64,000 nucleotides of DNA from Torymus aiolomorphi. Taxonomy: Eukaryota > Arthropoda > Insecta > Hymenoptera > Torymidae. The stretch covers positions 20,712,209 to 20,776,208 of the forward strand of contig CM070874.1 in assembly GCA_036365515.1 (NCBI GenBank), given 5' to 3'. Shown one piece after another: positions 4,808 through 52,567 of this stretch. Both the position numbers and the translations under genes were made by a program. The stretch's first letter is position 1, and each line of letters opens with the position of its first letter. The notes under the pieces were generated by a model. It was not told the origin of the DNA and searched no databases. It worked only from the letters and a program-made list of their open reading frames with translations.

Positions 4808-5009
4808 CTATGGGAATTGGTATATTTGAAGAGATGTCGGCATTTTGAAGAGACTCCTCAAATTGCCCAACACAAGAATCGCGACTTTTGAGGAGAAATC
4901 TATACCCCCTTTTCCAAGAGTCGGTAACCTGAGGGTCATTATTTCTTTAGTCACATTGTCCGAACTCTGAGCGAAATGTTCACATCTCCTCAAAAGTACC
5001 AATTTACAA

Positions 5010-5013
<4 letters not shown>
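4807..5013. repeat. short repeat, inverted partner at 8930-9150
   Basis: A ~210-bp block with several ACTTTTGAGGA-like submotifs. Its reverse complement, diverged, is at 8930-9150 (shared TTATTTCTTTAGTCA and CTCAAAAGTACC). The pair symmetrically brackets FB2 and its flanking microsatellites, so the whole interval 4807-9150 is roughly palindromic. No credible gene. Confidence 0.75.

Positions 5014-5053
<40 letters not shown>
5014..5053. repeat. TA microsatellite
   Basis: TA dinucleotides directly abutting the left end of FB2. Confidence 0.95.
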
Positions 5054-5055
<2 letters not shown>

Positions 5056-6386
5056 GTAACTTCATGTCAAGTGTGACAGGTCAAAATTTTGAAATTGCTC
5101 AAAATTTTTTTACTAGTTCCAAATTAGCCCCAAAACACAACCCTAGAGTTTTAGAGCAAAATATTCAATCGTTCAAAAGTTAGGATTAATTGAAAATTTG
5201 AAAATTTTGAATTTTTTCATAAATCTTCAATTTTCATGATTTTTTAACTCAAAAACTTGAAACTTTTTCTATAGCTCATTAAATGGGAAAAAGTTTCCAA
5301 ATTGTAAGTAGAATTGCTCAGAATTTTTCCAGATTGATACCAATTATATTGTTAATTTATACGTAAGAAAATACCATACAAAATATGCTTAAGGCGGTTG
5401 TGACGTGATTAATATCCCTCGACAGAGGCTAAAAATTTGATACAAAATGTTACTTTTAAAACGAGACCTTGATGAAAGTGGAGTGCAAACTCAGAAATAA
5501 GTAACAGACAATTGAAACTGTATATATGTATATATATATATATGAATATACAGGGTAATTCTGAAACAATACAACATTTATATACCAACGTGATCAGCGT
5601 GAAAAACTGAGTCAAGATCACTTGGTCCCAAAAATTTTCCAGCAAATTTTCCGCACCCCTATTATGCACAGAAAAATTTCCCCCATAGTGCCGGTCCTGG
5701 CAGCGACGGCGCGAGCCAAGCGGCAGCCGCCGCGGCAAAGAGTGGAGGGCGTTGCTACGGAGTACGTTAACGGAAGCGGGAGGTAAGGGGAAAGCGAAAG
5801 AATCAAAATACCTCTGAAATCATCTTCTCAAAGAAATGGCTACATTTGGTTACTTATAAGGTAAATCGAGGTCGAAAAATCCGATTTTGAAATTCCTAGC
5901 TTCCTAAATCCAGCGGTTCTACGCGAAAACAGCGATTGAAAGTTTCAGTCGTTTATATCTCGAGAACGACTTAGTCTCCGACAAAATGGCTTGCGTCAAA
6001 CGATACAGCGTAAAATTTTGTATCGGAAACGAGTTTTTACTTGATTTCGATGAGCGCAAAGTTCCGAGATAATTAATCCAATAGAAATTAATGCCCCCCC
6101 CCCCCGGGCCTCCGGTATGCTTCTCTCGAAGTCTCGCTCAAAAACTCGTTCAAAGACTCGCATATTCAGCTAGACTTTGAGCCAGGCATCGAGCGTTATA
6201 CAAAGTTTATGCTCAGTTTAGATAAAGTTCATTCAAAGTTTTGACAAAGTTTGCGTAAAGTTTATACAAAGTTTACATAAAATTTATACAAAGTTTACAT
6301 GAAATTTATACAAAGTTTAGATAAAGTTACGACGAAGTTTATAGATTATAGAAAGTTGAAGGTCTGCATGAAAGGTGCCGCTCGAA

Positions 6387-6556
6387 GTCTGGCTAAAAGT
6401 CTGGCTAAAAGTATGACTAAAAGTATGGCTAAAGTATGGCTAAAAGTATGGCTAAAAGTATGGCTTAAAATTATGGCTAAAAGTATGGCTAAAAGTATGG
6501 CTAAAAGTATGGATAAAAGCATGGCTAAAAGTATGGCTAAAAGTATGGCTAAAAGC
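6387..6556 (+). repeat. 12-bp tandem array, left copy (FB2)
   Basis: About 14 units of AAAAGTATGGCT with variants (CTGG, GACT, GGAT). The frame repeats Lys-Ser-Met-Ala by accident of the period. The array is itself flanked by inverted sequence (CTGCATGAAAGGTGCC at 6365 and its reverse near 6570), making a palindrome inside each FB2 arm. Confidence 0.9.
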
Positions 6557-7313
6557 CAGACTTCGAGCGGCACCTTTCATGCAGTCCTTCAACTTTCTAT
6601 AATCTATAAATTTCGTCGAAACTTTATCTAAACTTTGTATAAATTTCATGTAAACTTTGTATAAACTTTATGTAAACTTTGTATAAACTTTATGTAAGCT
6701 TTATATAAATTTTACTCAAACTTTGTCAAAACTTTGAATGAACTTTACCTAAACTGACAACGAGAGTTCGCACCCTCTGGGAAACGGATTTTCGCAGTGA
6801 TTGGAGTCGATTTCTGGTACCTAAAAATGAAGCCCGTGTGCCTAATTCCATCTCATAGGCCCTTTTTCTTGAGATATGGGCAATATCATCTCAAATATAC
6901 TCTATTTCGCTAAAAAATTGTTTCTTCTATTGCCTCTCACATTGCAAGTATATAAGATACGAAAACGAGGGAAAATTATAAAAGTAAACAGTAAAACCTA
7001 AAATTTAAACCATGATTCGTTAAAAAATATCGATTTTTCAGAAAGTTACAAGCAATCAAAGATAGGGTACAAAAATGTTTAAAATTCCGATCCACTTAAT
7101 CGGTTAAAATGAAGACCAATTTTTCACCATTTTCGTATGCGATCTTTGATTGCTTGTCAGAAATGGACTCTCCTTGTCAGTTTAGATAAAGTTCATTCAA
7201 AGTTTTGACAAAGTTTGCGTAAAATTTATATAAAGTTTACATAAAGTTTATACAAAGTTTACATAAAGTTTATACAAAGTTTACATGAAATTTATACAAA
7301 GTTTTAGGCATAC

Positions 7314-7470
7314 TTTTATCCATACTTTTAGCCATACTTTTATCCATACTTTTAGCCATACTTTTAGACATACTTTTACCCATACATTTAGCCATACTTT
7401 TAGCCATACTATTAGCCATACTTTTATCCATACTTTTAGCCATACTTTTAGCCATACTTTTAGCCAGAAT
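7314..7470 (-). repeat. 12-bp tandem array, right copy (FB2)
   Basis: Same unit as the left array, in reverse orientation (TTTTAGCCATAC), about 13 units. Only its right side carries the GGTGCC...CTGCATG flank; the left flank is missing, so the two inner palindromes are not identical. Confidence 0.9.
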
Positions 7471-8310
7471 TCGAGCGGCACCTTTCATGCAGACCTTCAA
7501 CTTTCTATAATCTATAAACTTCGTCGAAACTTTGTATAAATTTCAGGTAAACTTTGTATAAACTTTATGTAAACTTTGTATAAACTTTACGCAAACTTTG
7601 TCAAAACTTTGAATGAACTTCATCTAAACTGAGCATAAATTTTGTATAACGCTCGATGCCTGCCTCAAAGTCTAGCTGAATATGCGAGTCTATTAACGAG
7701 TTTTTGAGCGAGCCTTCGAGAGAAGCATACCGGCGGCCGGGGGGGGGGGGGGGCGCATTAATTACTATTGGATTAATTATCTCGGAAGTTTGCGCTCATC
7801 GAAATCAAGTAAAAACTCGTTTCCGATACAAAATTTTACGCTGTATCGTTTGGCGCAAGCCATTTTGACGTAGACTAAGTCGTTCTCGAGAGATAAGCGA
7901 CTGAAACTTTCAATCGCTGTTTTCGCATAGAACCCCTGAATTTAGGAATCTAGGAATTTCAAAATCGTGTTTTTCGACCTCAATTTACCTTATAAATAAC
8001 CAAATGTAGCCATTTCTTTGACAAATTGATTTCAGAGGTATTTTGATTATTTCGCTTTCCCCTTACCTCTCGCTTCCGACAACAAACTCCGTAGCAACGG
8101 TTGCCCACACTCTTGGCGCGGCGGCCGCCGCACGAGTCTCGCCGCCGCCGCTGCCAGGGCCGGCGCTATGCGGGGAATTTCCCTGGACCTTACAAGAGCG
8201 CGGAAAACTTACTCGAAAATTTTTCGGGCCAAGTAATCTTGACTCAGTTTTTCACGCTGATCACGATGGTATATAAATATTGTATTGTTTCAGAATCACC
8301 CTGTATATGG

Positions 8311-8359
<49 letters not shown>

Positions 8360-8823
8360 GTTTCAATCGTCTGTTACTTACTTCTGAGTTTGCATTCCAC
8401 TTTCATGAAGGTCTCATTTTAAAAGTAACATTTTGTATCAAATTTTTAGCCTCTGTCGAGGGATATTAATCACGTTACAACCGCCTTAAGCATATTTTGT
8501 ATGGTATTTTCTTACGTAAAAATTAATAATATAATTGGCATCAATCTGGAAAAATTCGAGCAATTCTACTTACAATTTGGAAACTTTTTCCCATTTAATG
8601 TGCTATAGAAAAAGTTTCAAGTTTTTGAGTTAAAAAATCATGAAAATTGAAGATTTATGAAAAAATCCAAAATTTTAAAATTCTCAATTAATTCTAACTT
8701 TTGAACGATTGAATATTTTGCTCTAAAACTCTAGGGTTGTGTTTTGGGGCTAATTTGGAACTAGTAAAAAAAATTTTGAGCAATTACAAAATTTTGACCT
8801 GTCACACTTGACATGAAGTTACC

Positions 8824-8929
<106 letters not shown>

Positions 8930-10367: not shown

Positions 10368-11780
10368 TTAATCCTCGTCACTATCTTCGTCTATTACAGG
10401 ACCAATATCTGAAGTAGTAAATAATTCGGAAAGAACTTTCGCTGGTCTAATAATTTTTGACTTATATCTTGCATTACTGAGATAATATATGACTGCAGCA
10501 ATGTGAGAACAGGATCCTACAGTTCGTAATCCATTAGCACAGCCACACGCATGGCGTAGGATACCGCTGTATCCAATTGAGTTAGGTTTGTATTCGATGT
10601 AGTATTTGTAAGTCGTACTGTTAATATGCCTGGACCTTATTAATACTTTAATGATATTTGGTTTGATCTTCATATATTCCAAATTGATATTGTTACTATC
10701 ATCCATTAACTCAGCCAAATAACATACGGCTTGACCTAATTGATAGGTACCTGAAAAAAATATTTTGAGATCTCTTTCAGTCATCTCCGGAAAGTCAATG
10801 ATTTCTTGGGATGTTAACTTGATCGTAGTAGTGGGTCGTCTAGACCATCTGGTTGTCTCAGCTTCTAATGCTAAAGTATTTTCACTTTTATTAGAATTTA
10901 ACATTCTTTCGATGATTATACCTTGTACGTCACCGTCATTTTTATCGCTATTCAAACGCTTACCAAAAAGGTTGTTCAGAAAACATGCAATTCTACAATA
11001 TGCACCAGCTTTCAGTAAAAGTTTATTATCTAATTGCTGGTGAAGAAGCTTATACTTTTTACCAAGAATACCATGAACAGCCTCTACAACCCATCTCAAT
11101 TTCGTAACGTAACGAGATTCATTCGATTCAGTCGTACTCAAGTTGGGTCTATTTCCCTTTAAGGCAGGCATGAGAATCTTAAAGCCAAGACTTTTTAAAT
11201 AAGGTATCATATCCCTAAAACCTCTATCTACAACGCAAACATCATCTTCTCTCATGATAGTTCTTATACCATCTGGATCATCCATTACTTTCTTCATGAT
11301 GCTTGCATCATTTTCTGTAGCTAAAAACGGACCAGGGACATCAACAACGAATCCGTCTGTGGTGCAAATAGTGAATGGCTTGGCCAAAGGATATTTATGC
11401 TGACCTGAATATGACTTTCTTTGGTATCCATTATTTTTACATTTTTGGTGACGTAAGTAAGTTTCATCAAAAACCAAAACAAGCTCGTTCTCTAATTTAA
11501 ACAGTTTTTTTGCATAAATGGAAGTGTGATCACGTATGAGATCCTCCCTTTTAATACTTTTTACTCCAAAATATTTCGGTAGGACATCTTTTTCAAATGA
11601 ATTAATTACTGATTCACAAAAATCTGAAACTTTTATTTCGTTTTCTATTGCGAAAAAAGACGAAATAAAATTATTCGACGATCCAGTTCGTAATTTAAAT
11701 AAACATATAACCAGGGCTTGTGTAACGTCTCTAGAATCCGATGATCTCATGGAAACTAATAATTTTCTCAGCTCTTGCAA
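10368..11780 (-). CDS. DDE-superfamily transposase with C-terminal SWIM zinc finger (main part)
   Basis: 470 codons from the first Met; the open frame extends further upstream without a Met, to the frameshift near 11970. The catalytic triad of a DDE_Tnp_4-type nuclease is clear: Asp105 in VFDETY, Asp185 in VVDRGFRD and Glu233 in RWVVEAVHGIL. Between the first two lies a block on TENDASIMKK typical of this family. The C-terminus has CGC at 412-414 and CSH at 424-426, a CxC-x9-CxH SWIM finger that probably binds DNA, and ends in an acidic tail. In the family the enzyme cuts and joins element ends. The gene lies just inside the left inverted repeat, transcribed toward it. All three catalytic residues are intact. 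Confidence 0.85.
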   Translation of the reverse strand: MQELRKLLVSMRSSDSRDVTQALVICLFKLRTGSSNNFISSFFAIENEIKVSDFCESVINSFEKDVLPKYFGVKSIKREDLIRDHTSIYAKKLFKLENELVLVFDETYLRHQKCKNNGYQRKSYSGQHKYPLAKPFTICTTDGFVVDVPGPFLATENDASIMKKVMDDPDGIRTIMREDDVCVVDRGFRDMIPYLKSLGFKILMPALKGNRPNLSTTESNESRYVTKLRWVVEAVHGILGKKYKLLHQQLDNKLLLKAGAYCRIACFLNNLFGKRLNSDKNDGDVQGIIIERMLNSNKSENTLALEAETTRWSRRPTTTIKLTSQEIIDFPEMTERDLKIFFSGTYQLGQAVCYLAELMDDSNNINLEYMKIKPNIIKVLIRSRHINSTTYKYYIEYKPNSIGYSGILRHACGCANGLRTVGSCSHIAAVIYYLSNARYKSKIIRPAKVLSELFTTSDIGPVIDEDSDED

Positions 11781-11947
11781 TTGATCAGTCGAAAGACTAG
11801 TAAAAGAGAATAATTGTTTTTCGCTAAGCTCCGATGATTTTATTTTATCTAAAAATGTTTCCGAGGCTAAATCTGAAATTTTTTTTAAAAATAAACATAT
11901 TTCATCTGCAGTTAAAAAACTCGTGTTACTGTGTATCTGTATTAGTT

Positions 11948-12466
11948 TCAGGTCATCATCAAAATTCGTTTTTTTATTAAATGCTCAGTACAAACTCGAT
12001 TGCCATTTGGAATAAAGATTTGCATTTCTTTGAAACATTGCAGTCTTGCAGTCAATGGTACACATGGCAAGTTATTTTTGTTTCTACAAACGCAACATGC
12101 TGTATGAGAAATCATAGTTCTTTTGAGGGGCAACTCGGTGGAAGGATTTTTTTCTACAGTTGGTTTTAATACTACCTCAAAAACGCTCCCTGAACTCTGA
12201 GAGCTGGGTATTTCCGAGCTTGACTGCGAACTCATTGGCTGACTTTGATCACTGGTTGAAGGTTCTACTTTTCGTGTCTCAAAAAAAACAAGTCTTCTAC
12301 ATTTATCGCAAAGTTTAAACCCAATGTCAACATTATCTACATTTAACAGCTCACAAACTGCTTCGACTTCACTAGCTGAATTAATGATCTTAATCTGAGC
12401 TGATATTTTACTGAGATTTCGCTTGAAGCAGTTGCAACATTGATCAGTATCATCAAACTCATCCAT
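11948..12466 (-). pseudogene. N-terminal zinc-binding part of the same transposase, frameshifted
   Basis: 172 codons opening MDEFDDTDQCCNC. Two Cys-pair motifs (CCNC near 10-13 and CDKC near 54-57) and a second cluster, CCVC...CVP...CF...IFIPNGNRVCTEHL, near residues 124-164, look like DNA-binding zinc modules; the last resembles the end of THAP-type fingers, but I would not insist. A Ser/Gln-rich linker separates them. The frame closes just after a run of seven T (plus strand 11969-11975), and the next frame is open straight into the DDE part with no stop, so a one-base slip in that run divides what was one gene of roughly 700 codons. Start 12466 is the first Met and is well placed. Confidence 0.7.
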
Positions 12467-13058: not shown

Positions 13059-13067
13059 GCAATATTT
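13059..13067. repeat. 9-bp target duplication, left (GCAATATTT)
   Basis: GCAATATTT precedes the terminal GACGGT of the foldback; the identical 9-mer follows the right terminus at 23430-23438 in the same orientation. Confidence 0.85.
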
Positions 13068-13289
13068 GACGGTATCTATTCGGACCCCTCCCGTGTAATT
13101 TTCCGTGTCCCGTAGAAAGTGCCGTGCAAAAAATTATACAAAAGATAAGGTTTCCGTTATCTTCCGTGTGTCTTGGTTATCTTTTATCTTCCGTCTCGTT
13201 CCCTTTCCAATCTCCGTAAAGATCCGTTCTCGATCAATAGAAACAGAATGCGGTCCGTAGGATTCCGTGTATCAGCAGTGTGATTCCGT

Positions 13290-14800
13290 AGCATGATAGT
13301 CAGGGAAAAATTGCGACCGTAATGTGCTGTAAATCGTCCGTGCCATTCCGTAGCATGATAAAATCAGGGAAAAATTGCGGCCGTAATGTTCCGTAAATCG
13401 GCCGTGTGATTCCGTAGCATGATAAAGTCAGGGAAAAATTGCGGCCGTAATGTTCCGTAAATCAGCCGTGTGATTCCGTAGCATGACAAAGTCAGGGAAA
13501 AATTGCGGCCATAATGTTCCGTAAATCGGCCGTGTGATTCCGTAGCATGATAAAGTCAGGGAAAAATTGCGGCCGTAATGTTCCGTAAATCGACCGTGTG
13601 ATTCCGTAGCATGATAAAGTCAGGGAAAAATTGCGGCCATAATGTTCCGTAAATCGGCCGTGTGATTCCGTAGCACGATAAAGTCAGGGAAAAATTGCGG
13701 CCGTAATGTTCCGTAAATCGGCCGTGTCATTCCGTAGCATGATAAAGTCAGGGAAAAATTGCGGCCGTAATGGTCCGTAAATCGGCCGTGTGATTCCGTA
13801 GCATGATAAAGTCAGGGAAAAATTGCGGCAGTAATGGTCCGTAAATCGGCCGTGTGATTCCGTAGCATGATAAAGTCAGGGAAAAATTGCGGCCGTAATG
13901 TTCCGTAAATCAGCCGTGTGATTCCGTAGCACGATAAAGTCAGGGATAAATTGCGGTCTGGATGTTCCGTAAATCGGCCGTAACATTCCGTACAATCATA
14001 AGATCAGGAAAAAATTGCAGCCGTGAGGTTCCGTAAATCAGCCGTGTGATTCCGTAACATGATAAAGTCACGGAAAAATTGCGGCAGTGGGATTCCGTAC
14101 ATCAGCCGTAACATTCCGTATTTCCTGAATCATAAGATCAGGAAACAATTGCAGCCGTGAGATTTCGTAAATCAGCCGCGTGATTCCGTAACATGATAAA
14201 GTCACGGAAAAATTGCGGCAGTGGGATTCCGTATATCAGCCGTAGCATTCCGTAGAATCATAAGATCAGGAAAAAATTGCAGCCGTGAAATTCCGTAAAT
14301 CAGCCGTGTGATTCCGTAACATGATAAAGTCACGGAAAAATTGCGGCAGTGGGATTCCGTATATCAGCCATAGCATTCCGTAGAATCATAAGATCAGGAA
14401 AAAATTGCAGTCGTGAGGTTCCGTTAATCAGCCGTGTGATTCCGTAACATGATAAAGTCACGGAAAAATTGCAGCAGTAGGATTCCGTATATCAAATATA
14501 ACATTCCGCAGCATACTAAAGGAAAGTCAGGGAAAAATTGCGAGCGTGGGATTCCGTATATCAGCCGTAACATTTCGTAGCATAATAAAATTAGGGAAAA
14601 CTTGCAGGACATTCCGTAGAATAAATAGAGCTAGGGAATACTCGCGCCGTAAGCGGCCGTATATTAACCGTGAGATTCCGTAGAATAAATAAAACCAGGG
14701 AATACTGGCGCCGTGGTTTGACGTGTATCAGCCGTGTGTTTCTGGAGAATAAATATTGATAAGAATAATAGTTTCCCGAAATTGACAGCGTACTACTCCC
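13290..14800 (+). repeat. 64-bp satellite array, left arm
   Basis: About 23 units of a 64-bp monomer (GCGG spacing 13441, 13505, 13569) containing CCGTAGCATGATAAAGTCAG and AAAAATTGCGGCCGTAATG. Early units are homogeneous; units after about 13930 are a diverged pair type (AAGATCAGGAAAAAATTGCA alternating with TCACGGAAAAATTGCGGCA). The recurrent TTCCGTA box occurs about twice per unit. Confidence 0.92.
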
Positions 14801-15257
14801 ATTTATCCAGTTGTAAATCATTTCTATATTTAAGATTTAATAATTTCTACATTATGACTTTGAATTGTGAGATGTTTCTACACGAAGCGTAGTGAGTTGC
14901 CGCTCTCAAGGTGCGCAAAGCTGATCATTCCCATGAATCGGAAATTCCCTCCCGAGTCTAGGGCACGGTTATTCTCGGAACGGAGGTGCGCAAGGTTCGA
15001 CTTTTTGTCTCTTAGGAGAAAACATTGAAAATAGATGGAGGTTTTTTACTACTTTGATTCGGGAACATTTTATTTCAATATCTTTCGAGTAAAAAGTCTT
15101 CTCCAGTGGGAGTAAATTACGTCTATTTTTGGAGTCTTTCCAATTCCGATTTCAGATAGAACGACTCCAATAACTCGTTGGAACATTTCGAATCTATTTC
15201 ATTTACGTGTGGGTTGTAAATGAATTTTTCAATTACTACGTCTGTACCAATTCTCTA

Positions 15258-15285
15258 CCCGGACTAGCTCAGACGGTAGAACATG
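15258..15285 (+). other. tRNA-Lys-like 5' half (A-box fragment), left arm
   Basis: CCCGGACTAGCTCAGACGG then TAGAACATG closely resembles the first 28 bases of eukaryotic tRNA-Lys(CUU), including the D-arm A box, but no anticodon arm, T arm or B box follows. It looks like the relic of a tRNA-derived SINE. The mirror copy is at 19647-19676. Not a functional tRNA. Confidence 0.45.
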
Positions 15286-15434
15286 TATGCAAGTATCATT
15301 GCGATAGATAAAGAGGAAAGAACAAACGAACTAACAAGATGTTGGCTGTAATTTTTGTTATCATATTCGAATGGTATGGCCCAAGGGAAATTTTGGGCTA
15401 ATTTAATTTTCTATATTAATAATTTTCTTTTTAT

Positions 15435-15779
15435 TTATTTAACATTACAGAAAATTCTACAAGTCGTCATCGTTATCGCCATTGTCATCGGATGAAAATG
15501 AGAACTGAATAACGATCTCGTGTGGGTTTTTTCTGGGACCAAACGTAGCCTGATGGGAAGCTCGACGTATTCAGGGACTATCACTTGGAAGGCCTCTGCC
15601 CTCGTAAAGACTCTGCCCTCGTAAACGAGATAGCCAAATCCCCAAAGGTAAATTGCCGCAATAGCTTTTTCTGCCAAAATGGAATTGTAACCCGTATATA
15701 ATAGAGAGAAAGAGATTATAAGTTTTATCTGAAACAATACCATTTTTACATCAGCAGACCAAGAGAAACCGCTATTCAT
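15435..15779 (-). CDS. small gene A of the foldback (left copy), unknown function
   Basis: 114 codons opening MNSGFSWSADVK. It has a hydrophobic stretch ISFSLLYTGYNS (about 22-33), then KAIAAIYLWGFGYL and the box FTRAEAFQVIVPEYVELP (about 58-75), and ends VPEKTHTRSLFSSHF plus a short tail. The LLxTGYxS and RAExxxVxVPEYxE blocks are shared with gene B in the same arm, so A and B are paralogues. An AATAAA lies within about 10 bases after the stop on the minus strand. The right-arm twin at 19158-19502 differs by only a few residues, which suggests constraint or arm-to-arm conversion. No family recognised; coding status is likely but not proven. Confidence 0.5.
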   Translation of the reverse strand: MNSGFSWSADVKMVLFQIKLIISFSLLYTGYNSILAEKAIAAIYLWGFGYLVYEGRVFTRAEAFQVIVPEYVELPIRLRLVPEKTHTRSLFSSHFHPMTMAITMTTCRIFCNVK

Positions 15780-16335
15780 GCATACATGACCACCTACTTA
15801 CTCATCTACTTATCACCCTACCTCGTTACCTATATACTTACCTACCTACCTACTTCCCTACCTACCTTCTAAAAATTTATCTACAAAAAGAAAACTGGTT
15901 ATATTGGGGTAAAGGTGAAGGATATCACTTAAAAATCAAAATACTACGTATCTTGTATCAATACCTCCACAGTGACATAGAAAAATAATTTTTTTTTATG
16001 TTTTCAGTCCCTCGTTGAACCAAATGATCGTAATTTCAGTGATGAAAATTGAGAAAAATAATGAGTGGGGCGCTGAGGGGGGGGGGGGCTACGATTCCTT
16101 CAAATTTCTTAAAAATAATGACATTTTTACGTTATTTGCAGGGGGTTCTGAGGGGGCGAAAAAGGGGGAGACGTGGCGTGGGGGGGCTGAGTCGTAAGCT
16201 TTTGATTACAAATATATAATATAGGAATATATATATATATAACTCACATGCTATCAATGTTCTCCGCTAGGTGGCGTATCTACAAATCTAGGCCATCTGG
16301 GAAACTCGCAAGTGGCAGGAGTTATCTTCGATTAG

Positions 16336-16343
16336 TATATAAG
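16336..16343 (+). promoter_or_regulatory. TATA box upstream of small gene B (left copy)
   Basis: TATATAAG preserved at the mirrored site as TGTATAAG (18572-18579, minus strand). A CT-rich leader follows (16383-16445), GA-rich in the mirror at 18490-18536. The gene B Met codons lie about 150-230 bp downstream. Confidence 0.5.
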
Positions 16344-16483
16344 AGACGAGTAAATCATGAACACGTGTATCGGCAGATGCACTATCTTTCTCTTTCTCTC
16401 CCTTCCTTTCTCCCTCCCTTTCTCTCTCTCTTTCGCTATCTCTGTTTCTTGCATGTATGCGCATGCATAAATAGCTGCTTCTC

Positions 16484-16849
16484 TTGATCTGCCGATGTCA
16501 AAAAGGTATTGAACCAAGTAAAACTTATATCTCTTTCTTTCTGTTACATACAGGTTACAGTTCCATGTCGCTATCTAAAAGAATTGTGGGATATGTCTTT
16601 GCGAATCTCTCGATCCCGGCTATCTGGTATATGAGGGCAGAATCATTGCGGGTGAGAGTCCCTGAATACGGCGAGAATGTCCGCTACCTCGGTCCCAGAA
16701 GACCCCCCTCCCCCGAGATCGTGCCGCTATCTTCTTTCGATGACGATGACGATGACGTGTCATCATCGTCATCGGATGATACCACCACCGATGACGACAA
16801 TGACGACCATCACAGCAGTGGATTCGGCAGCGCGGAAGGGGACCAATAA
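16484..16849 (+). CDS. small gene B of the foldback (left copy), acidic tail, unknown function
   Basis: 121 codons from the first Met, but the better start may be the Met at 16565 (MSLSKRIVGYVFANL), which the mirror copy also uses. Core: IWYMRAESLRVRVPEYGENV then LGPRRPPSPEIVPL, followed by a tail of Asp/Ser runs (about residues 86-112) made of GAT/TCA-type triplet repeats, ending SSGFGSAEGDQ. The RAESLRVRVPEY block matches gene A. Just before the core, AAAAG|GTATTG (16507) and TTACATACAG|G (about 16555) could be donor and acceptor of a very short (about 48-nt) intron. AATAAA at 16872-16877 follows the stop closely. Function unknown. Confidence 0.5.
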   Translation: MICRCQKGIEPSKTYISFFLLHTGYSSMSLSKRIVGYVFANLSIPAIWYMRAESLRVRVPEYGENVRYLGPRRPPSPEIVPLSSFDDDDDDVSSSSSDDTTTDDDNDDHHSSGFGSAEGDQ

Positions 16850-16969
16850 TAGTATTCTGTAATGTTTCATAAATAAAAAAAAATCAATATAGCAAATTAA
16901 TTTGACTTTAAATGTCCCTTTGCACCACACCATTCGAATATGGTAACAATTTTTTTTGCTCTTTATTTT

Positions 16970-17175
16970 AAACTTTTTCTTTATCTCGTCTAATACTTAA
17001 CACTAGTATTACTTTTTCAGCGGACAATTCATTCGTTCTCAACTAAAAGTCGTCACCCATAAGCATCTTGCCCCTACCTACTGCTTCATTGATTTTGAGG
17101 AAACGTGAATCGGAGCAGTCCAGAAGCCAAGGTTTCGGCATTAAGCTTGACTCTCGCCTCTCCTGAACCTAGAAA
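16970..17175 (-). pseudogene. broken mirror copy of small gene C
   Basis: Reverse complement of 17760-17957 with one extra A (around TTTCCTCAAAATCAATG) that shifts the frame and other changes (CTCCTGAACCTAG for CTTCTGGACCTAG). The intact form is at 17736-17957. Confidence 0.6.
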
Positions 17176-17735
17176 TAATTTTACTAGGATAACCAGGTCA
17201 CTGTAAAACGGAGACTGATTTTTCAAAACTCTACATCGATTCTCAACGCGGAGTCCACGAGATAGGAATTTTTTACGCGCATAACCGAAATAAGACCTTT
17301 TTCTACGCGAAATCGAAAGATACGACTTTTTTCTACGCGAAGTCGAGATAGGAGTTTCTTACGCGTAAAGCTGAGATAGGACTTTTTTCCACTCGACGTC
17401 GAGATAGGACTTTATTTGACGCGACGTCGAGATAGAACTTTTTCCACATGAAGGCCAGATAGGACTTTCTTTCTTCCAGACGACGAGATCATGTTCACAA
17501 GTCTTATTTCGATTGGCAAAGATGTAAGAACTAATGAACGAACAAACGAACGATCGAACGAACGAACGAGTTCTTCTTCTTCTTTCTTTTGGAATAGCGC
17601 TGGTTGGACTAAAATTGTGCTCTGTTCCATCATTATTTCGGCTTTGCGCGTAAGAAAGCCCTATTTCGGGGACTCCGCATTGAGAATCGCTGTAGAGTTT
17701 TAAAAAATCAATTTCCGTTTTAAAGTGGCCTGGTT

Positions 17736-17957
17736 ATGCTAGTGAAATTATTTCTAGGTCCAGAAGAGGCGAGAGTCAAGCTTAATGCCGAAACCTTGGC
17801 TTCTGGACTGCTCCGATTCACGTTTCCCCAAATCAATGAAGCAGTAGGTAGAGGTAATATGCTTACGGGTGAAGACTATAACTTGAGAACAAACGAGTTG
17901 TCTGCTGAAAAAGTAATACTAGTGTTAAGTATTATTCGAGATAAGGAAAAAGTTTAA
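17736..17957 (+). CDS. small gene C near the centre of the foldback, unknown function
   Basis: 73 codons; content runs LFLGPEEARVKLNAETLAS, then LRFTFPQINEAVGRG, then LSAEKVILVLSIIRDKEKV and stop, with AATAAAG 3 bases later. TTATTTCTAG|G just before GPEEARV (about 17757) looks like a splice acceptor, so the listed Met may be intronic and this may be the last exon of a longer gene whose upstream part I cannot locate. The left-arm counterpart is frameshifted. No family recognised. Confidence 0.4.
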   Translation: MLVKLFLGPEEARVKLNAETLASGLLRFTFPQINEAVGRGNMLTGEDYNLRTNELSAEKVILVLSIIRDKEKV

Positions 17958-18087
17958 AATAAAGAGCAAAAAAAATGTTACCATATTCGAATGGTGTGTT
18001 GAGAAGGGAAATTTAAAGTCAAATTAATTTTCTATATTAATTTTTTTTTTATTTATGAAACATTACAGAATACTATTATTGGTCCCC

Positions 18088-18360
18088 TTACTCGATGCCG
18101 AATCCACTGCTATGATGGTCGTCGTTGTCATCATCGGTGGTGGTATCATCCGATGACGATGATGACATGTCATCGTCATCGGATGAATATAGCTGCACGA
18201 TCTCGGGGGAGGGGGGTCTTCTGGGACCAAGGTAGCCATGATGGACATTCTCCTCATATTCGGGGACTCTTACCCGCAATGCCTCTCTCCTCATATACCA
18301 GATAGCCTGGATCGAGAGATTCGCAAAGACATATCCCGCAATTCTTTCAGATAACGACAT
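18088..18360 (-). CDS. small gene B of the foldback (right copy)
   Basis: 90 codons from MSLSERIAGYVFANL, homologous to 16565-16849: IWYMRREALRVRVPEYEENV, LGPRRPPSPEIVQL, then a shorter Asp/Ser tail ending SSGFGIE. The tail is shorter by several triplets and the last residues differ because of a small deletion near the stop. Upstream on the minus strand the same ACATACAG|G acceptor and AG|GTATTG donor-like pair is kept (about 18370-18420), as is the TATA-like box at 18572-18579. Retention of the frame in both arms supports coding. Function unknown. Confidence 0.5.
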   Translation of the reverse strand: MSLSERIAGYVFANLSIQAIWYMRREALRVRVPEYEENVHHGYLGPRRPPSPEIVQLYSSDDDDMSSSSSDDTTTDDDNDDHHSSGFGIE

Positions 18361-18490
18361 GGAACTGTAACCTGTATGTAACAGAAAGAAAGAGATATAA
18401 GTTTAACTTGGTTCAATACCTTCTTCACATCAGCAGATCAAGAGAAGCAGCTATTCATGCATACGCATACATGCAAGCAACAGAGATAGC

Positions 18491-18494
<4 letters not shown>

Positions 18495-18536
<42 letters not shown>
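18495..18536 (+). repeat. GA microsatellite in the gene B leader
   Basis: About 20 GA units between the TATA-like box and gene B (right copy); the left copy has a shorter, interrupted CT tract at 16383-16445. Confidence 0.9.
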
Positions 18537-18538
<2 letters not shown>

Positions 18539-19157
18539 CTGCCGATGCACGTGTTAATGGTTTACTCGTCTCTTATACACTAATCGAAGATAACTCCTGC
18601 CACTTGCGAGTTTCTCAGATGGCCGAGATTTGTCGATACGCCACCTAGCGGAGAACATTGATAGCGTGTGAGATATATATATCTTCCTATATTATATATT
18701 TGTAATCAAAAGCTTACGATTCAGCCCCCCCCCCCCCCCCCACGCCGCTCCTCATCCCCTTTTCGCCCCCTTAGAACCCCATGCAAATAACGTGAAAATG
18801 TGATTACTTATACATTATTTTTAAGAAATTTGAACGAATCGTAGCCCCCCTCTCCTCCCTCAGCAACCCACTCATTATTTCTCTCAATTTTCATCACTGA
18901 AATTTAAGATCATTTGAGTTAACGAAGGGCTGAAAACATAAAAAAAAATTATTTTTCTACGTCACTGTGGAGGTATTGATACTAGACACGTAGTATTTTG
19001 ATTTTTAAGTTATATCCTTCACCTTTACCCGAATATAACCAGTTTTCTTTTTTTGGATAAATTTTTAGAAGGTAGGTAGGGAAGTAGGTAGGTAGGTAAC
19101 TATATAGATAACGAGGTAGGTTGATAAGTAGATGAGTAAGTAGGTGGTCATGTATGC

Positions 19158-19502
19158 ATGAATAGCGGTTTCTCTTGGTCTGCTGATGTAAAAATGGTAC
19201 TGTTTCAGATAAAACGTATAATCTCTTTCTCTCTATTATATACGGGTTACAATTCCATTTTGGCAGAAAAAGCTATTGCGGCAATTTACCTTTGGGGATT
19301 TGGCTATCTCGATTACGAGGGCAGAGGCTTTACGAGGGCAGAGGCCTTAAGAGTGATAGTCCCTGAATACGTGGAGCTTCCCATTAAGCTACGTTTGGTC
19401 CCAGAAAAAACCCACACGAGATCGTTATTCAGTTCTCATTTTCATCAGATGACAATGGCGATAATGATGACGACTTGTAGAATTTTCTCTAATGTTAAAT
19501 AA
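19158..19502 (+). CDS. small gene A of the foldback (right copy)
   Basis: 114 codons, same length as the left copy at 15435-15779 with about nine residue differences (for example K for L in VKMVLFQIKR, LDYEGRG for LVYEGRV, ALRVIVPEY for AFQVIVPEY). The ALRVIVPEY form is closer to gene B (SLRVRVPEY). AATAAA occurs within 10 bases after the stop. Equal length in both arms despite substitutions argues that the frame has been selected, at least until recently. No function assigned. Confidence 0.52.
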   Translation: MNSGFSWSADVKMVLFQIKRIISFSLLYTGYNSILAEKAIAAIYLWGFGYLDYEGRGFTRAEALRVIVPEYVELPIKLRLVPEKTHTRSLFSSHFHQMTMAIMMTTCRIFSNVK

Positions 19503-19646
19503 ATAAAAAGAAAATTATTAATATAGAAAATTAAATTAGCCCAAAATTTCCCTTGGGCCATACCATTCGAATATGATAACAAAAATTACAGCCAACATCT
19601 TGTTAGTTCGTTCGTCCTTTCTTCTATCGCAATGATACTTGCATAC

Positions 19647-19676
19647 ATGTTCTACCGTCTGAGCCAGTCCGGGTAG
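19647..19676 (-). other. tRNA-Lys-like 5' half, right arm
   Basis: Reverse-strand mirror of 15258-15285, with GGCTC for AGCTC in the A box. Not a complete tRNA. Confidence 0.4.
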
Positions 19677-20149
19677 AGAATTGGTACAGACATAGTAAAC
19701 GAAAAATTCATTTACAACCCACACGTAAATGAAATAGATTCGAAATGTTCCAACGAGTTATTGGAGTCGTTCTATCTGAAATCGGAATTGTAAAGACTCC
19801 AAAAATAGGCGTAATTTACTCCCAAAGAAGAAGGCTTTTTACTCGAAAGATATTGAAATAAAATGTTCCCGATCAAAGTAGTAAAAAACCTCCATCTATT
19901 TTCAACGTTTTCTCCTAAGAGACAAAAAGTCGAACCAAGCGCACCTCCGTTCCGAGAATGGCCGTGCCCTAGACTCGGGAGGGAATCTCCGATTCATGGG
20001 AATGATCAGCTTTGCGCACCTTGAGAGCGGCAACTCACTACGCTTCGTGTAGAAACATCTCACAATTCAAAGTCATAATGTAGAAATTATTAAACCTTAA
20101 ATATATAAATGATTTACAACTGGATAAATGGGAGTAGTACGCTGTCAAT

Positions 20150-23100
20150 TTCGGGAAACTATTATTCTTATCAATATTTATTCTCCAGAAACACACGGCT
20201 GATACACGTCAAACCACGGCGCCAGTATTCCCTGGTTTTATTTATTCTACGGAATGTCCTGCAAGTTTTCCATAACTTTATTCTGCTACGAAATGTTACG
20301 GCTGATATACGGAATCCCACGCTCGCAATTTTTCCCTGACTTTCCTTTAGTATGCTACGGAATATTATGACTGATATACGGAATCCTACTGCAGCAATTT
20401 TTCCGTGACTTTATCATTTTACGGAATGACACGGCTGATTTACGGAACCTCACGGCTGCAATATTTTCCTGATCTTATGATTCTACGGAATGCTACGGCT
20501 GATATACGGAATCCCACTGCCGCAATTTTTCCGTGACTTTATCATGTTACGGAATCACACGGCTGATTTACGGAATCTCACGGCTGCAATTTTTTCCTGA
20601 TCTTATGATTCAGGAAATACGGAATGTTACGGCTGATGTACGGAATCCCACGACCGCAATTTTTCCGTGACTTTATCATGCTACGGAATCACACGGCTGA
20701 TTTACGGAACCTCACGGCTACAATTTTTTTCCTGATCTTATGATTGTACGGAATATTACGGCCGATTTACGGAACGTCAAGACCGCAATTTATCCCTGAC
20801 TTTATCGTGCTACGGAATCACACGGCTGATTTACAGAACATCACGGCCGCAATTTTTCCCTGACATTATCATGCTACGGAATCACACGGCCGATTTACGG
20901 AACATCACGGCCGCAATTTTTCCCTGATGTTATGATTGTACGGAATGGTACGACTGATGTACGGAATCCCACGACCGCAATTTTTTCACGAATTTATCAT
21001 GCTACGGAATCACACGGCCGATTTACGGAACATCAGGGGCGCAATTTTTCCCTGACTTTATCATGCTACAGAATCACACGGCCGATTTACGGAACAGCAC
21101 GGCCGCAATTTTTCCCTGATCTTATGATTGTATGGAATGTCACGGATGATGTACGGAATCCCACGGCCGCAATTTTTCCCTGACTTTATCATGCTGCGGA
21201 ATCACACGGCCGATTTACGAAACCTCACGGCTGCAATTTTTTCCTGGTCTTATGATTGTACGGAATGTTACGGCTGATGTACGGAATCCCACGGCCGCAA
21301 TTTTTCCGTGACTTTATCATGCTACGGAATCACACAGCCGATTTACGGAACATCACGGCCGCAATTTTTCCGTGACTTTATCATGCTACGGAACCACACT
21401 GCCGATTTACGGAACATCACGGCCGCAATTTTTCCCTAACTTTATCCTGCTACGGAATCATACGGCCGATTTACGGAATCCCACGCCCCGCAATTTTTCC
21501 CTGACTTTCCTTTAGTATGCTACGGAATGTTATGACTGATATACGGAATCCTACTGCCGCAATTTTTCCGTGACTTTATCATTTTACGGAATCACACGGG
21601 TGATTTACGGAATCTCACGGGTGCAATTTTTTCCTGATCTTATGATTCAGGAAATACGGAATGTTACGGCTGATGTACGGAATCCCACGACCGCAATTTT
21701 TCCCTGACTTTATCATGCTACGGAATCACACGGCCGATTTACGGAACATCGCGGCCGCAATTTTTCCCTGACGTTATCATGCTACGGAATCATACGGCCG
21801 ATTTACGGAATCCCACGCCCCGCAATTTTTCCCTGACTTTCCTTTAGTATGCTACGGAATGCTACGGCTGATATACGGAATCCCACTGCCGCAATTGTTC
21901 CGTGACTTTATCATGTTACGGAATCACACGGGTGATTTACGGAATCTCACGATTGCAATTTTTTCCTGATCTTATGATTCAGGAAATACGGAATGTTACG
22001 GCTGATGTACGGAATCCCACGACTGCAATTTTTCCCTGACTTTATCATGCTACGGAATCACACGGCCGATTTACGGAACATTACGGCCGCAATTTTTCCC
22101 TGACTTTATCATGCTACGGAATCACACGGCCGATTTACGGAACATTACGGCCGCAATTTTTCCCTGACTTTATCATGCTACGGAATCACACGGCCGATTT
22201 ACGGAACATTATCGCCGCAATTTTTGCGTGACTTTATCATGCTACGGAATCGCATGGCCGATTTACGGAACATTACGTCTGCAATTTTTCCGTGACTTTA
22301 TCATGCTACGAAATCCCACAGCCGATTTACGGACCATTACGGCCGCAATTTTTCCCTGACTTTATCATGCTACGGAATCACACGGCTGATTTACGGAATC
22401 TCACGGCTGCAATTTTTTGCTGCTCTTATGATTCAGGAAATACGGAATGTTACGGTTGATGTACGGAATCCCACGACCGCAATTTTTCCGTGACTTTATC
22501 ATGCTACGGAATCACACGGCCGATTTACGGACCATTACAGCCGCAATTTTTCCCTGACTTTATCATGCTACGGAATCACACGGTCGATTTACGCAACATC
22601 ACGGCCGCAATTTTTCCCTGACTTTATCATGCTACGGAATCACACGGCCGATTTACAGAACATTACGGCCGCAATTTTTCCCTGACTTTATCATGCTACG
22701 GAATTACACGACCGATTTACGAAACCTCACGGCTGCAATTTTTTCCTGATCTTATGATTGTACGGAATATTACAGCTGATGTACGGAATCCCACGGCCGC
22801 AATTTTTCCGTGACTTTATCATGCTACGGAATCACACAGCCGATTTACGGAACATCACGGCTGCAATTTTTCCGTGACACTATCATGCTACGGAATCACA
22901 CGGCCGATTTACGGAACATCGCGGCCGCAATTTTTCCCTGACTTTATCATGCTACGGAATCACACGGCCGATTTACAGAACATTACGGCCGCAATTTTTC
23001 CCTGACTTTATCATGCTACGGAATCACACGGCCGATTTACGGAACATTACAGCCGCAATTTTTCCCTGACTTTATCATGCTACGGAATCACACGGCCGAT

Positions 23101-23225
23101 TTACGGAACATTACGGCCGCAATTTTTCCCTGACTTTATCATGCTACCGAATCACACGGCCGATTTACGGAACATTACGGCCGCAATTTTTCCCTGACTT
23201 TATCATGCTACGGAATCGCACTGCT
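20150..23225 (-). repeat. 64-bp satellite array, right arm
   Basis: About 48 units, twice the left array, in reverse orientation. Composed of homogeneous 64-bp blocks (especially 22040-23215) mixed with the diverged pair type; larger segments around CCTTTAGTATGCTACGG (20343, 21511, 21840) recur, showing expansion by duplication of multi-unit blocks. No coding content. Confidence 0.92.
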
Positions 23226-23429
23226 GACACACGGAATCCTACGGACCGCATTCTGTTTGTATTGATCGAGAACGGATCCTTACGGAGAATGGAAACGGAA
23301 CGAGTCGGAAGATAAAAGATAACCAAGACACACGGACGATAACGGAAACTATCTTTTGTATAATTTTTTACACGGCACTTTCTACGGGACACGGAAAATT
23401 ACGCGGGAGGGGTCCGAATAGACACCGTC

Positions 23430-23438
23430 GCAATATTT
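23430..23438. repeat. 9-bp target duplication, right (GCAATATTT)
   Basis: Identical to 13059-13067. Confidence 0.85.
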
Positions 23439-26577: not shown

Positions 26578-27699
26578 TTCCGACTGTCGGGACAGAGAGA
26601 TTTTCGCGGGCAGGACACCTCAGACCCGCGAAAATTCTCTCCCACTACAACCGTTTGCTGTCTCTCTCTCTCACTCTCATTTCATATACGAACGCAGGTA
26701 AGGCAGGGAGCGCGAGAGATAGCCGGAAGGTGCTGCTACTGATCCAGCGCAGCGCCTGTTCTCCTTGCCCTCGTATGCGTTTCCTCGCGGTCGCCGCGCC
26801 AGATCAGTGCCATTGCCCTGCTAGCGCGGCGATTCCTGGTCACCGCGCAATTCTTATTTCCTAATTGTCTTTGCGCAATGGCAAGCTACAATGAATTTAA
26901 CACTCGTTGCGGCTTTAACAATAAATTGATAAAATTAAAAATTAATAAATTAATAATTAAAATATTGGCACGTAACACTCCCTAATATGCGTGGACCTCA
27001 TATCCCCCGTCTACTTAGGTTTAAAAATTATTTAAATAATCGTTTTGATTATTTTTCATGACTCCCTTATATGCGTGTACCTCGCGTTTCCCGACTGCTT
27101 GGGTTTAAAAATTATTTAAATAATAGTTTTGCTTATTATTTCATGTCTTCATGACTCTCTTATATGCCTGGACCTCGCGACTCCCGGCTACTTGTGTTTA
27201 AAAATTATTTAAATAATCGTTATGCTTATTATTTCATGTCTACATGACTCCCTTATATGCGTGGACCTCATAAACCCCGCCTACTTAGGTTTAAAAGCTA
27301 TTTAAATAATCGTTTTGCATATTTTTTCATGTCTACATGACTCCCTTATATGCGCGGACCTCATATCTCTGGCCTACTTGGGTTTAGAAATTATTTAAAT
27401 AACCGTTTTGCTTATTTTTTCATATCTACATGACTCCTTTATATGCGTGAACCTCACATACCCCGTCTACTCAGGTTTAAAAGCTATTTAAATAATCGTT
27501 TTGCTTATATTTTCATGTCTACATGACTTCCTTTTTTTCATGATTCCCTTATATGCGTGGACCTCACGTCCCCCGGCTACTTGGGTTTAAAAATTATTTA
27601 AATAATCGTTTTGCTTATTTTGTTATGTCTACATGACTCCCTTATATGCGTGGATCTCATATCCCCCGCCTACTTGTGTCCAACGCGCTGACAGTCGGC
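26578..27699. repeat. possible DNA element with hairpin head and 93-bp array
   Basis: CCGACTGTC at 26579 and its reverse GACAGTCGG near 27690 may be short inverted ends. Inside are a GC-rich hairpin (TTTTCGCGGG 26601-26610 with CCCGCGAAAA 26625-26634), a CT-rich GC-balanced block to about 26880, and the 93-bp tandem array. The delimitation is tentative. Confidence 0.35.
26982..27680. repeat. 93-bp tandem repeat, about 8 units
   Basis: Units start TATATGCGTGGACCTCA near 26986, 27070, 27163, 27256, 27349, 27442 and on to 27645; period 93 after a first unit of 84. Each contains TTTAAATAATCGTTTTGCTT and CATGACTCCC. Units differ by point changes, one by a short internal duplication near 27530. 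Confidence 0.93.
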
Positions 27700-48532: not shown

Positions 48533-50692
48533 TCGACAGGTGCGATCGCGAAAACCCCACGAGTCGCAAAGGGGTTAACGCCTATCAATGAAGAGCCGCA
48601 AACTTTCCGTAACACCGGAGACACACAGGTAGTAACTACTGCCACACCTTCCGGATCGGATGGCATCGATAACTCGCAAATAAGGAATAGGAAGCCGAGC
48701 AACCCAAATGTTCGGTTAGACTTTTCGAATTTGAATTTCCCTCCCCCAAATGAGGGAAGAAGTAGAATACCCCCCGTAACAAATAACTCTTTAGCGAATG
48801 GCAATAACCGATCCATATACACACAATCAACCATTGCAAATAACAGGCAATTAAGGTACTCGACCAGTAACCATCACACAAACCAGGTCCCGGTAGAGTC
48901 ATTATCGCATCCCCACCATACGTCGACCGCAGATGTTACTGGTGCGCAAACGAATTTTACCCTACGACAAATGCTGTCACAACAGCATAACACTCAATCA
49001 CCCTATCAAAATCAACAACCGTATATAATGAACGGAGCGCAGATGATGCCCCCTTATTACCCCCCGTTCATCGGAAATTTTGCTGGCGTGCATCCGTACA
49101 ATTAATTAAGGTATTCTATGAATTTTCACCCACAAGGCTATCAGCCGCATTTAGCATTACCTTTTGGTTCGACCACTTTGCCGCGGGAACATATACCACC
49201 CCAAGGGGCCCAAAGTTTCATTCCCCAACAACAATCGTGTAATAACACTTTTTCGACCCAGAGGTTCGATGATCCTTCGTATATTTCTCAATCGAATTCG
49301 CTATTTCCCCACAATTCCACTCACAATACTAGCGCCACAGTAGCTCACGACGATTCTCGTTTGATTCGTCTATTGCGAGATTGGAAAATTTCTTTTACTG
49401 GAAAACCGCAAGAGGATGCTGATGATTTTCTGCGTCGACTTTCGGCGTTCGCCAGAAGTTATAACACCTCCGATCAGACTCTTCTACGGCTACTACCTGT
49501 CATTCTTCAAGATAGAGCAGAAAGCTGGTCGCAACCTCTAGCTAGAGACTGGATGACATTTGACGACTTCAAAGCAGCTCTTTAACTACAGTACGGGAAG
49601 ACTGATTTCCAACTTCGGTTAGAAGATGAGATAAGGAATAGAACGCAGGGGCCAGGAGAAACCATGGCTTCATTCTTAGCAGCGTTAAGACTGCTACTCG
49701 ATAAAACTGTGCCGTAAATTTACTTAGAGGGTCAATTGGACAAAGCTTTTCGAAATCTCCACCCAAGTTACTCAAGGGTAATTCGTCGAGTTCAATTTAA
49801 TACCTTTCAAGAGCTGTTACAACTAGGACAACAGGAGGAAGTACGAAAGGAACGGGAGAGGAACTATAAGCCCCCATCCTCACCGGACGCCTCCCTGTTT
49901 CCTAATGTCGCCTTCTGCCCACTAGAAGACTTACAAATAAGACGTAAGCCGAGGAATCAAGAAGGAAATAAGGTAGCAGTGAGTAAAGTGGAGGGAGAAT
50001 GGAATGAAACAGCTACCCTCAATAATGTGAAGTTCGCGCCACACAACCCACCGAAACGAGAGTCAAACGAGTCGCAGAACAAAGAAGTCTCGCCTAAGGA
50101 GATTCCCAAAAATCGGACCAACCCGCCAGTGTCTAAAACTGCAAATAACTCCAACGTTGCAGCCACACCAACCACGTCTGCCTCGGAAAAGGCAAATCAA
50201 CAAGAGCGAACTTTTCCTTGTTGGGTGTGCAACGACTTAGGACATTGGGCTTACCACTGCCCACATAGAACTGGAAAAATTTCTTTAAGTGCGGCAGAAA
50301 AGACGAAACCATCAGAACGTGCCCGAACTGTAAAACAAATTCGGGAAACGCCAAAGGGGGAACTCAGTAAGGGCCGAGACAACCCCCAACAAAAATCAGG
50401 CCCTATAACACAACAACCGCAAGGAGTGGTACATAAACCCTCGAAAATATCGTCGAATAATAATAAAGTAGATTCGAAAGTTGAAGTAAAAAGAATAGAA
50501 AGTAACCCCGAAGATAGGAAATCATCGTCGAAATCTAGCTCACTCTTGGTAGAATCGTCCCTAGGTAGCATAGCTTCGACAAACACTCAGGGTATAGGGT
50601 CCTCTAGTCTAAGGATAAACTTAGAACCAACACTACAGCAACTCCTAGCTCCAGAGTCGCACAAACCTCCTACCGAAACACTACCGAACTAA
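48533..50692 (+). pseudogene. GypsyB gag, capsid and nucleocapsid parts
   Basis: One frame holds a Pro/Gln/Asn-rich linker (to about 49320), a capsid-like segment LIRLLRDWKISFTGKPQEDADDFLRRL...LLPVILQDRAESW (about 49360-49530) typical of Gypsy gag, and a nucleocapsid knuckle CWVCNDLGHWAYHC (about 50219-50260, CX2CX4HX4C) followed by a Lys/Ser-rich tail. In-frame TAA stops sit at 49106, 49586, 49715 and 50693. The protein would package genomic RNA in particles. Confidence 0.8.
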
Positions 50693-50799
50693 CAACACAA
50701 CCCCCCTCACCACCCAAAACACAAACCTCCTACTGAAACACTACCTACACCTCTACACAGCGACCCAGAATCAGGATTAGTTAATAGTGGTTTTTCATC

Positions 50800-52535: not shown

Positions 52536-52567
52536 CGCGTTGGGCCATGGCCTAGCAAGCCTACAAT

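Follow-up and report, generated by a model that had tools for sequence, protein, structure and literature searches.

A 64,000-nucleotide stretch of the Torymus aiolomorphi genome (Hymenoptera, Torymidae; GenBank assembly GCA_036365515.1, contig CM070874.1, positions 20,712,209 to 20,776,208 of the forward strand), hereafter the window, contains a 10.36-kb palindrome filled with satellite DNA, which raises the question of what kind of element could have this anatomy. Drosophila FB/NOF elements combine long inverted repeats made of tandem subrepeats with 9-bp duplications and a transposase of the Mutator-like element (MULE) type. A preliminary description, made from the letters of the window alone, had therefore proposed a giant FB/MULE-type element with small genes instead of a transposase. 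Our analysis leads to the verdict that the element is a giant variant of the MULE/foldback elements, and it is very probably a non-autonomous, extended-foldback member of a giant MULE transposon family.

The element occupies window positions 13068-23429, with GCAATATTT abutting each end as an exact 9-bp duplication. Its parts are as follows.

13059..13067, no strand: left 9-bp target site duplication (GCAATATTT)
13068..13249, plus strand: left terminal inverted repeat (TIR), about 180 bp, beginning GACGGTATCTATTCGGACCCCTCCCG
13250..14755, plus strand: left array of a 64-bp satellite, about 23 units, with the CCGTR motif on one strand (Tandem Repeats Finder, TRF, and motif count)
14756..17292, plus strand: non-satellite left arm, containing a nested inverted duplication
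15435..15779, minus strand: degenerate paralogue of the small gene, without sign of constraint
16565..16849, plus strand: small gene, 94 aa, with an acidic Ser/Asp-rich tail ending SSGFGSAEGDQ
17293..17633, no strand: loop between the arms, with 28-bp repeats
17634..20260, minus strand: non-satellite right arm, mirror of the left
18088..18360, minus strand: mirror copy of the small gene, 90 aa
19158..19502, plus strand: mirror copy of the degenerate paralogue
20261..23250, minus strand: right array of the 64-bp satellite, about 46 units, with CCGTR on one strand (TRF and motif count)
23251..23429, minus strand: right TIR
23430..23438, no strand: right 9-bp target site duplication (GCAATATTT)

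The arms measure 4.2 kb (left) and 5.8 kb (right), are 88% alike and enclose a central loop of about 340 bp. Aligned over 230 bp, with one of them reverse-complemented, the arm starts are near-identical apart from a single internal 2-base gap, and the longest inverted match pairs 13255-17293 with 21620-17633 (4,087 aligned bases, 88.5%). The mirrored termini, the 9-bp duplication and the fully mirrored order of parts noticed in the preliminary description were thus all recovered by self-comparison, and its satellite counts (23 against 48 units) come close to the 20.8 + 2.3 units on the left and 46.0 on the right reported by TRF. The left half additionally holds an older inverted duplication, in which 15471-15783 matches 16463-16757 (69%) and 15355-15454 matches 16853-16949 (78%), giving an overall range of 69-78%. 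Long palindromes and satellites are hard to assemble, so a segmental inverted duplication or an assembly artefact, with no transposon involved, has to be weighed at this point; the 88% rather than 100% likeness of the arms speaks against an artefact.

Further evidence on this point came from the rest of the genome, an assembly of 1.08 Gb in 21 contigs, five of which hold nearly all bases (C1 to C5 serve below as contig labels). The 16-base end of the element has 14 exact matches genome-wide and its 26-base end has 33 matches with up to 3 mismatches, the reversed control giving 0 in both searches. One extra exact end brought the total to 34. We grouped these into 13 pairs of convergent neighbours, which left 8 ends unpaired. 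The ends fall into family A (GACGGTGTCTATTCGG, the type of the window element), a sister family B (GAAAGTGTCTATCCGG) and, for a single pair, a third type (GGCAGTGTCTATACGG). In seven of the 13 pairs, 10.4-80 kb apart, the flanks form exact 9/9 duplications: the window element and the copies of 31.5 kb on C3, 12.6, 23.3 and 16.25 kb on C2, 16.15 kb on C5 and 80 kb on C4. By comparison, none of 156 non-partner flank comparisons reached at least 8/9. The other six pairs match at 2 (C1, 66.8 kb), 3 (C2, 39 kb), 3 (a 95-bp copy), 5 (C5, 0.8 kb), 6 (C1, 2.3 kb) and 7 (C2, 95.75 kb) of nine positions. Because of this difference between partners and non-partners, the 9-bp duplication is a property of the element family, as expected for MULE transposases, whose target duplications span 8-11 bp and typically 9 bp; the genome-wide recurrence of the same ends with such duplications, which the preliminary description had proposed to look for, is therefore borne out. 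Of eight other family-A loci examined, all but the 95-bp copy have the 64-bp satellite following the end or paired with it, and related copies sit on other chromosomes. Since exact 9-bp duplications surround several copies on four contigs, and since the joined C3, C2 12.6-kb and C2 16.25-kb stretches contain no N, both a simple segmental inversion and an assembly artefact are disfavoured, and we consider such an origin extremely improbable.

Among the ends themselves, the right ends C2:241440456 and C2:245597988, 4.1 Mb apart, share the first 34 bp of their outer flanks, with 782 of the first 1,000 bases matching without gaps; because of this common flank, one of the two is probably a segmental duplicate.

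The assignment to MULEs rests on the linkage of a transposase to the same and sister ends. A genome search with PF10551 (MULE) gave 150 scored hits out of 338 candidates, four of which (C4:82.914M, C1:75.048M, C2:6.470M and C2:6.483M) fall within the 13 paired spans, totalling 395 kb, where 0.055 would be expected (P about 4e-7 if the hits are independent). A fifth, C2:135.781M, is associated with an unpaired family-A end, the one end found there, and sits 21.6 kb inward of it. We read these five loci in part. The C1 66.8-kb and C4 80-kb copies, both with B ends, have transposase regions 97.8% identical in DNA over 2.1 kb, are 99.5% identical over 1,526 bp inside each end on both sides, and place the MULE domain 23.9 kb (C1) and 24.5 kb (C4) from the right end. 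The family-A loci C2:6.483M (ends at C2:6.45M) and C2:135.781M encode proteins 98.3% identical over 357 aa, and the family-A transposase is 54% identical to that of family B. At four of the five loci the gene is oriented toward an end, lying 21.6, 23.9, 24.5 and, at C2:6.483M, 36.3 kb from it. A DDE transposase associated with family ends was thus found at C4 and C1 (B) and at C2:6.45M and C2:135.76M (A, the latter with one end only), which is the MULE gene bounded by the same ends that had been predicted from the window.

The C4 frame of 587 aa contains the Pfam domains PF21056 and PF10551. D52, D116 and E228, which we take to be the DDE triad, and a CxC...CxH pattern, presumably a SWIM motif, are invariant in 10 aligned transposase sequences. 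Searched against the Protein Data Bank, the transposase returned chance-level matches only (best E 0.17). A total of 46 protein relatives were recovered, the best named one from Trichogramma kaykai (43%, no PHD listed); their similarities point to ZSWIM/MULE proteins, some with a PHD finger.

Several observations weigh against this assignment, some of them in favour of another account, in which the spans represent some other large element, or chromosomal DNA, caught between small foldback ends, with the MULE genes as nested insertions. The window copy itself lacks a transposase, and six of the 13 end pairs, including C1 66.8, C2 95.75 and C2 39 kb, have no exact 9-bp duplication. The four hits in paired spans are not independent, as the C1 and C4 loci are two copies of a single element and the two C2 hits share one span; moreover, the scored hits comprise 150 of the 338 candidates, and among the seven exact-duplication spans only that on C4 contains a scored MULE hit. 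Within the C2 95.75-kb span, C2:6.470M is a second, divergent MULE that shares only about 32% identity with the neighbouring one, which shows that nesting of MULEs does take place. The C1 transposase gene is interrupted. Both B copies may also have inherited their transposase as a nested MULE. Two further PF10551 hits, C2:187.024M (12.9 kb) and C1:196.698M (53 kb), lie near but outside family-A ends. Judged by eye, the 31.5-kb C3 copy holds a BEL-like gag frame and the 23.3-kb C2 copy a pair of open reading frames (ORFs) like those of a long interspersed nuclear element, so that these copies house other transposons and owe part of their size to nested insertion. Against the nested or chromosomal account stand the exact 9-bp duplications of the 31.5- and 80-kb spans, the sharing by C1 and C4 of both ends together with a transposase at near-equal offset, and the agreement of transposase type with end type at every locus read except the divergent C2:6.470M (four of five). 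Because one of seven spans carries a hit and one of five loci holds a divergent MULE, we have shifted our assessment slightly toward nested insertion and slightly away from a giant MULE family; even so, nested insertion remains an unlikely explanation. The FB/MULE interpretation in the preliminary description is partly supported: it stands as regards the foldback anatomy, the 9-bp duplications elsewhere and the same-ended MULE transposase, and falls short at the six pairs without an exact duplication. The two outside hits (C2:187024406 and C1:196698313) are possibly rearranged copies and are not counted as support.

Convergence by a P-superfamily foldback on the same anatomy offers a further alternative. 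P elements make 7-8-bp duplications, whereas those found here measure 9 bp in seven pairs, and the transposases inside same-ended loci are MULE transposases; P-type elements are disfavoured on both grounds, although no search aimed at a P/THAP transposase was made. The resemblance behind this idea is to Galileo, whose long, internally repeated TIRs bind the transposase through their repeats (PMC3688188), and in which the copying of TIR1 and its flank to the other end is described in the portions of the papers available to us (PMC3688188, PMC3573991). Galileo differs in having a P/THAP transposase and TIRs of at most about 1.26 kb among those given in the consulted part of the D. mojavensis paper. 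Overall, a P-type origin appears very improbable.

Within the giant MULE family, the C3 copy offers a comparison that bears on how the window copy could have acquired its extended foldback. This copy spans 31,486 bp with arms of about 1.7 kb, consisting of end plus satellite; the two flanks inside its arms show no match to one another. Its right flank, in contrast, appears on both sides of the window core (96.0% on the left and 93.1% on the right, about 1.56 kb), the two flanks of the window element are 93.4% alike, and the window core matches the inverted gene pair of the C3 copy at 96.4%. Because the C3 right flank is duplicated about the window core while the C3 copy's own flanks are unmatched, we infer that an end and its flank were copied onto the other end in the window element. 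The same end-plus-flank copying has been proposed for TIR growth in Galileo, according to the section of the report consulted (PMC3573991). In the C3 copy, positions 4899-5946 of the stretch read also contain two frames that match no Pfam family above cutoff. We presume a resemblance of these frames to the N-terminal region of large polymerase-like proteins encoded in animal genomes.

Beyond their length, the arms are marked by dense, strand-biased CCGTR motifs, at about 50 per kb on one strand. The left arm contains 78 forward and 4 reverse copies in its outermost 1,680 bp (7.4 forward in shuffled sequence) and the right arm 148 and 11 in the last 3,250 bp of the element (13.0 forward in shuffles), set against 2 and 4 in the 5,400-bp window core. 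The cores of two other copies stay near shuffled levels (36 and 32 against 28 and 24; 7 and 18 against 9 and 14), and outside flanks hold 0 to 6. At least 30 forward and at most 6 reverse motifs occur in the first 1.5 kb of 25 of the 30 ends examined (34 being known); the five that depart from this are the two ends of the 95-bp copy, a single end in each of the 0.8- and 2.3-kb copies, whose 1.5-kb stretch runs into the opposite arm, and end L047 (41 and 17). Neighbouring motifs are spaced 10-11 bp apart in A and 9-10 bp in B for somewhat more than half of the sites. The A arm has a global 10.6-bp period, which was not detected in the B arm, where spacing is local only (9/10/19/29 bp). An unrelated origin of the A and B satellites was rejected, as they are distantly alike at 66-69%, and the shared motif therefore partly reflects common descent. 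By analogy with Galileo, CCGTR is a putative transposase-binding site (PMC3688188). In the part of their paper available to us, Marzo et al. treat the question of whether the tandem repeats of Foldback and Phantom elements serve as binding sites as untested (PMC3688188); one-strand CCGTR arrays kept in two families with 66-69% similar satellites would make it directly testable.

The element also carries small genes. By eye, the 94-aa gene has an acceptor-like AG upstream and an AATAAA downstream. Over six pairs, involving the 94- and 90-aa window frames and two frames of the C3 copy, the ratio of nonsynonymous to synonymous substitution rates (dN/dS) is 0.33 to 0.56; for a second gene type, present in the C3 copy and in B copies, six pairs yield 0.32 to 0.60, and for the degenerate paralogues three pairs yield 0.76 to 2.3, all values resting on small counts of changes. 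These ratios suggest genes for small acidic proteins under weak constraint. The window gene showed no relative at E 0.01 among 10 candidates, and the four small window proteins matched no Pfam family above cutoff. The related 89-aa second-type gene of the C3 copy has five relatives in public assemblies at 52-84% identity, and an acidic tail with SSGFGS occurs in three of these five as well as in the proteins of the window and C3 copies. The small genes thus look like genuine genes of the element family. The notion of small genes instead of a transposase holds for the window copy, but fails as a simple replacement because a relative without the extended foldback also has small genes. A helper or anti-silencing role for the proteins is a matter of speculation.

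In a mechanism that would accommodate these features, larger copies would supply a SWIM-type DDE transposase in trans, which would bind the ends and the many CCGTR motifs of the satellite arms, pair the two arms, and cut and paste the element with a 9-bp stagger. In the window copy, one end with its inner flank would have been copied to the other end by repair or gene conversion, yielding the order TIR-flank-core-flank-TIR, and the satellites would then have been altered separately in each arm by unequal exchange or slippage. The tiny acidic proteins would probably be accessory proteins of the element. A bolder version, which we advance tentatively and at somewhat less than even confidence, posits a MULE lineage with single units of about 65-80 kb that transpose intact, in which kilobase-long one-strand CCGTR arrays at the ends, their sites often one helical turn apart, allow the transposase to pair widely separated ends, a family of tiny acidic proteins encoded by the element acts as helper, and shorter palindromes like the window copy arise by end copying.

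Among known systems, the likeness to FB/NOF, namely long inverted repeats of tandem subrepeats, a 9-bp duplication and a MULE-type transposase, is one of general build. According to the sections of the cited report we used, Rehavkus, a MULE-related group of arthropods and annelids, has 9-bp duplications, a minisatellite by the TIR and a PHD-finger transposase (PMC6446971). Minisatellites are likewise present here, as 64-bp and 127/253-bp arrays inside the TIRs of both arms; Rehavkus TIRs, however, are given there as 26-400 bp (PMC6446971), compared with arms of 1.7 to 5.8 kb and spans of up to 80 kb. The three transposase frames read showed no PHD; five of the 46 protein relatives have one listed. 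A PHD-like frame seen by eye in a B copy gave a BLASTP match to one relative at E 0.013, and a profile of five PHD ends reached 24.5 bits (E 5e-6) in two copies, those of 12.6 and 16.15 kb, against 7.6 bits for the best reversed sequence. The 16.25-kb copy (14.5 bits) and the 23.3-kb copy (14.1 bits) scored lower; Pfam reports no PHD at the PHD-like frame of the B copies. These scores make a PHD remnant in the B copies probable, and membership in Rehavkus possible, the evidence being suggestive rather than proof.

Tm1, a Phantom-type MULE/foldback of root-knot nematodes, is similar, in the excerpts consulted, in its 9-bp duplications, in TIRs consisting mostly of variable tandem motifs, and in having both transposase-bearing copies and copies resembling miniature inverted-repeat transposable elements; it differs in its size (1.1 and 2.6 kb), its tandem motif of about 14 bp and its Phantom-type transposase (PMC3169594). 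Neither the three transposase frames nor a 94-aa frame upstream contains a FLYWCH domain like that of Phantom/Tm1, the true N-terminus not being fixed. Tetris, a foldback of D. virilis, has 220-bp TIR repeats and 8-10-bp duplications, and was placed in Mutator by duplication size; in contrast to the transposase linked to the ends here, the part of that report available to us gives no conserved ORFs and no transposase (PMC4079207).

As for scale, the portion of a 2026 survey that we consulted puts complete arthropod MULEs at 1.9-10.0 kb, with TIRs that reach 1,193 bp in the text and one table row listing 1,527 bp (PMC13359780), and a review, as far as its accessible text goes, states that transposition efficacy falls once the cargo exceeds 6 kb (PMC6431247). 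An exact duplication around an 80-kb span that also contains a transposase would, if true, stretch this limit. Judged by the open-access literature, three features appear to be new: this scale, satellite arms with motif arrays on one strand, and small genes in inverted pairs. Dispersed satellites and inversions could also have their origin in such elements.

The window contains further repetitive features around the element. A second foldback at 5049-8829 has arms at 5049-6767 and 7167-8829 that are 86.8% alike, ends GGGTAACTTCATGTCAAGTGTGACAGG, and tandem units of 11 bp (AAAGTTTATAC-like) and 12 bp (AAGTATGGCTAA); its duplication is unreadable because it is inserted in a TA/CA microsatellite. 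In the minus-strand region 10368-12466, 0.6 kb outside the element's left end, a DDE_Tnp_4 transposase frame (10368-11780; PF13359, E 4e-13) has a tail that by eye looks SWIM-like (CxC...CxH), and another frame lies upstream of it. At 642-2298, a reverse transcriptase followed by a GIY-YIG-like frame appears Penelope-like by eye, both Pfam matches being below cutoff. A Gypsy-like element, recognized by eye and containing protease domains, lies at 49118-53674, and a BEL/Pao element (PF05380, PF03564) at 55643-60731. Finally, a 93-bp satellite at 26977-27676 has a unit that resembles, by eye, the 93-bp array in the C2 23.3-kb element.

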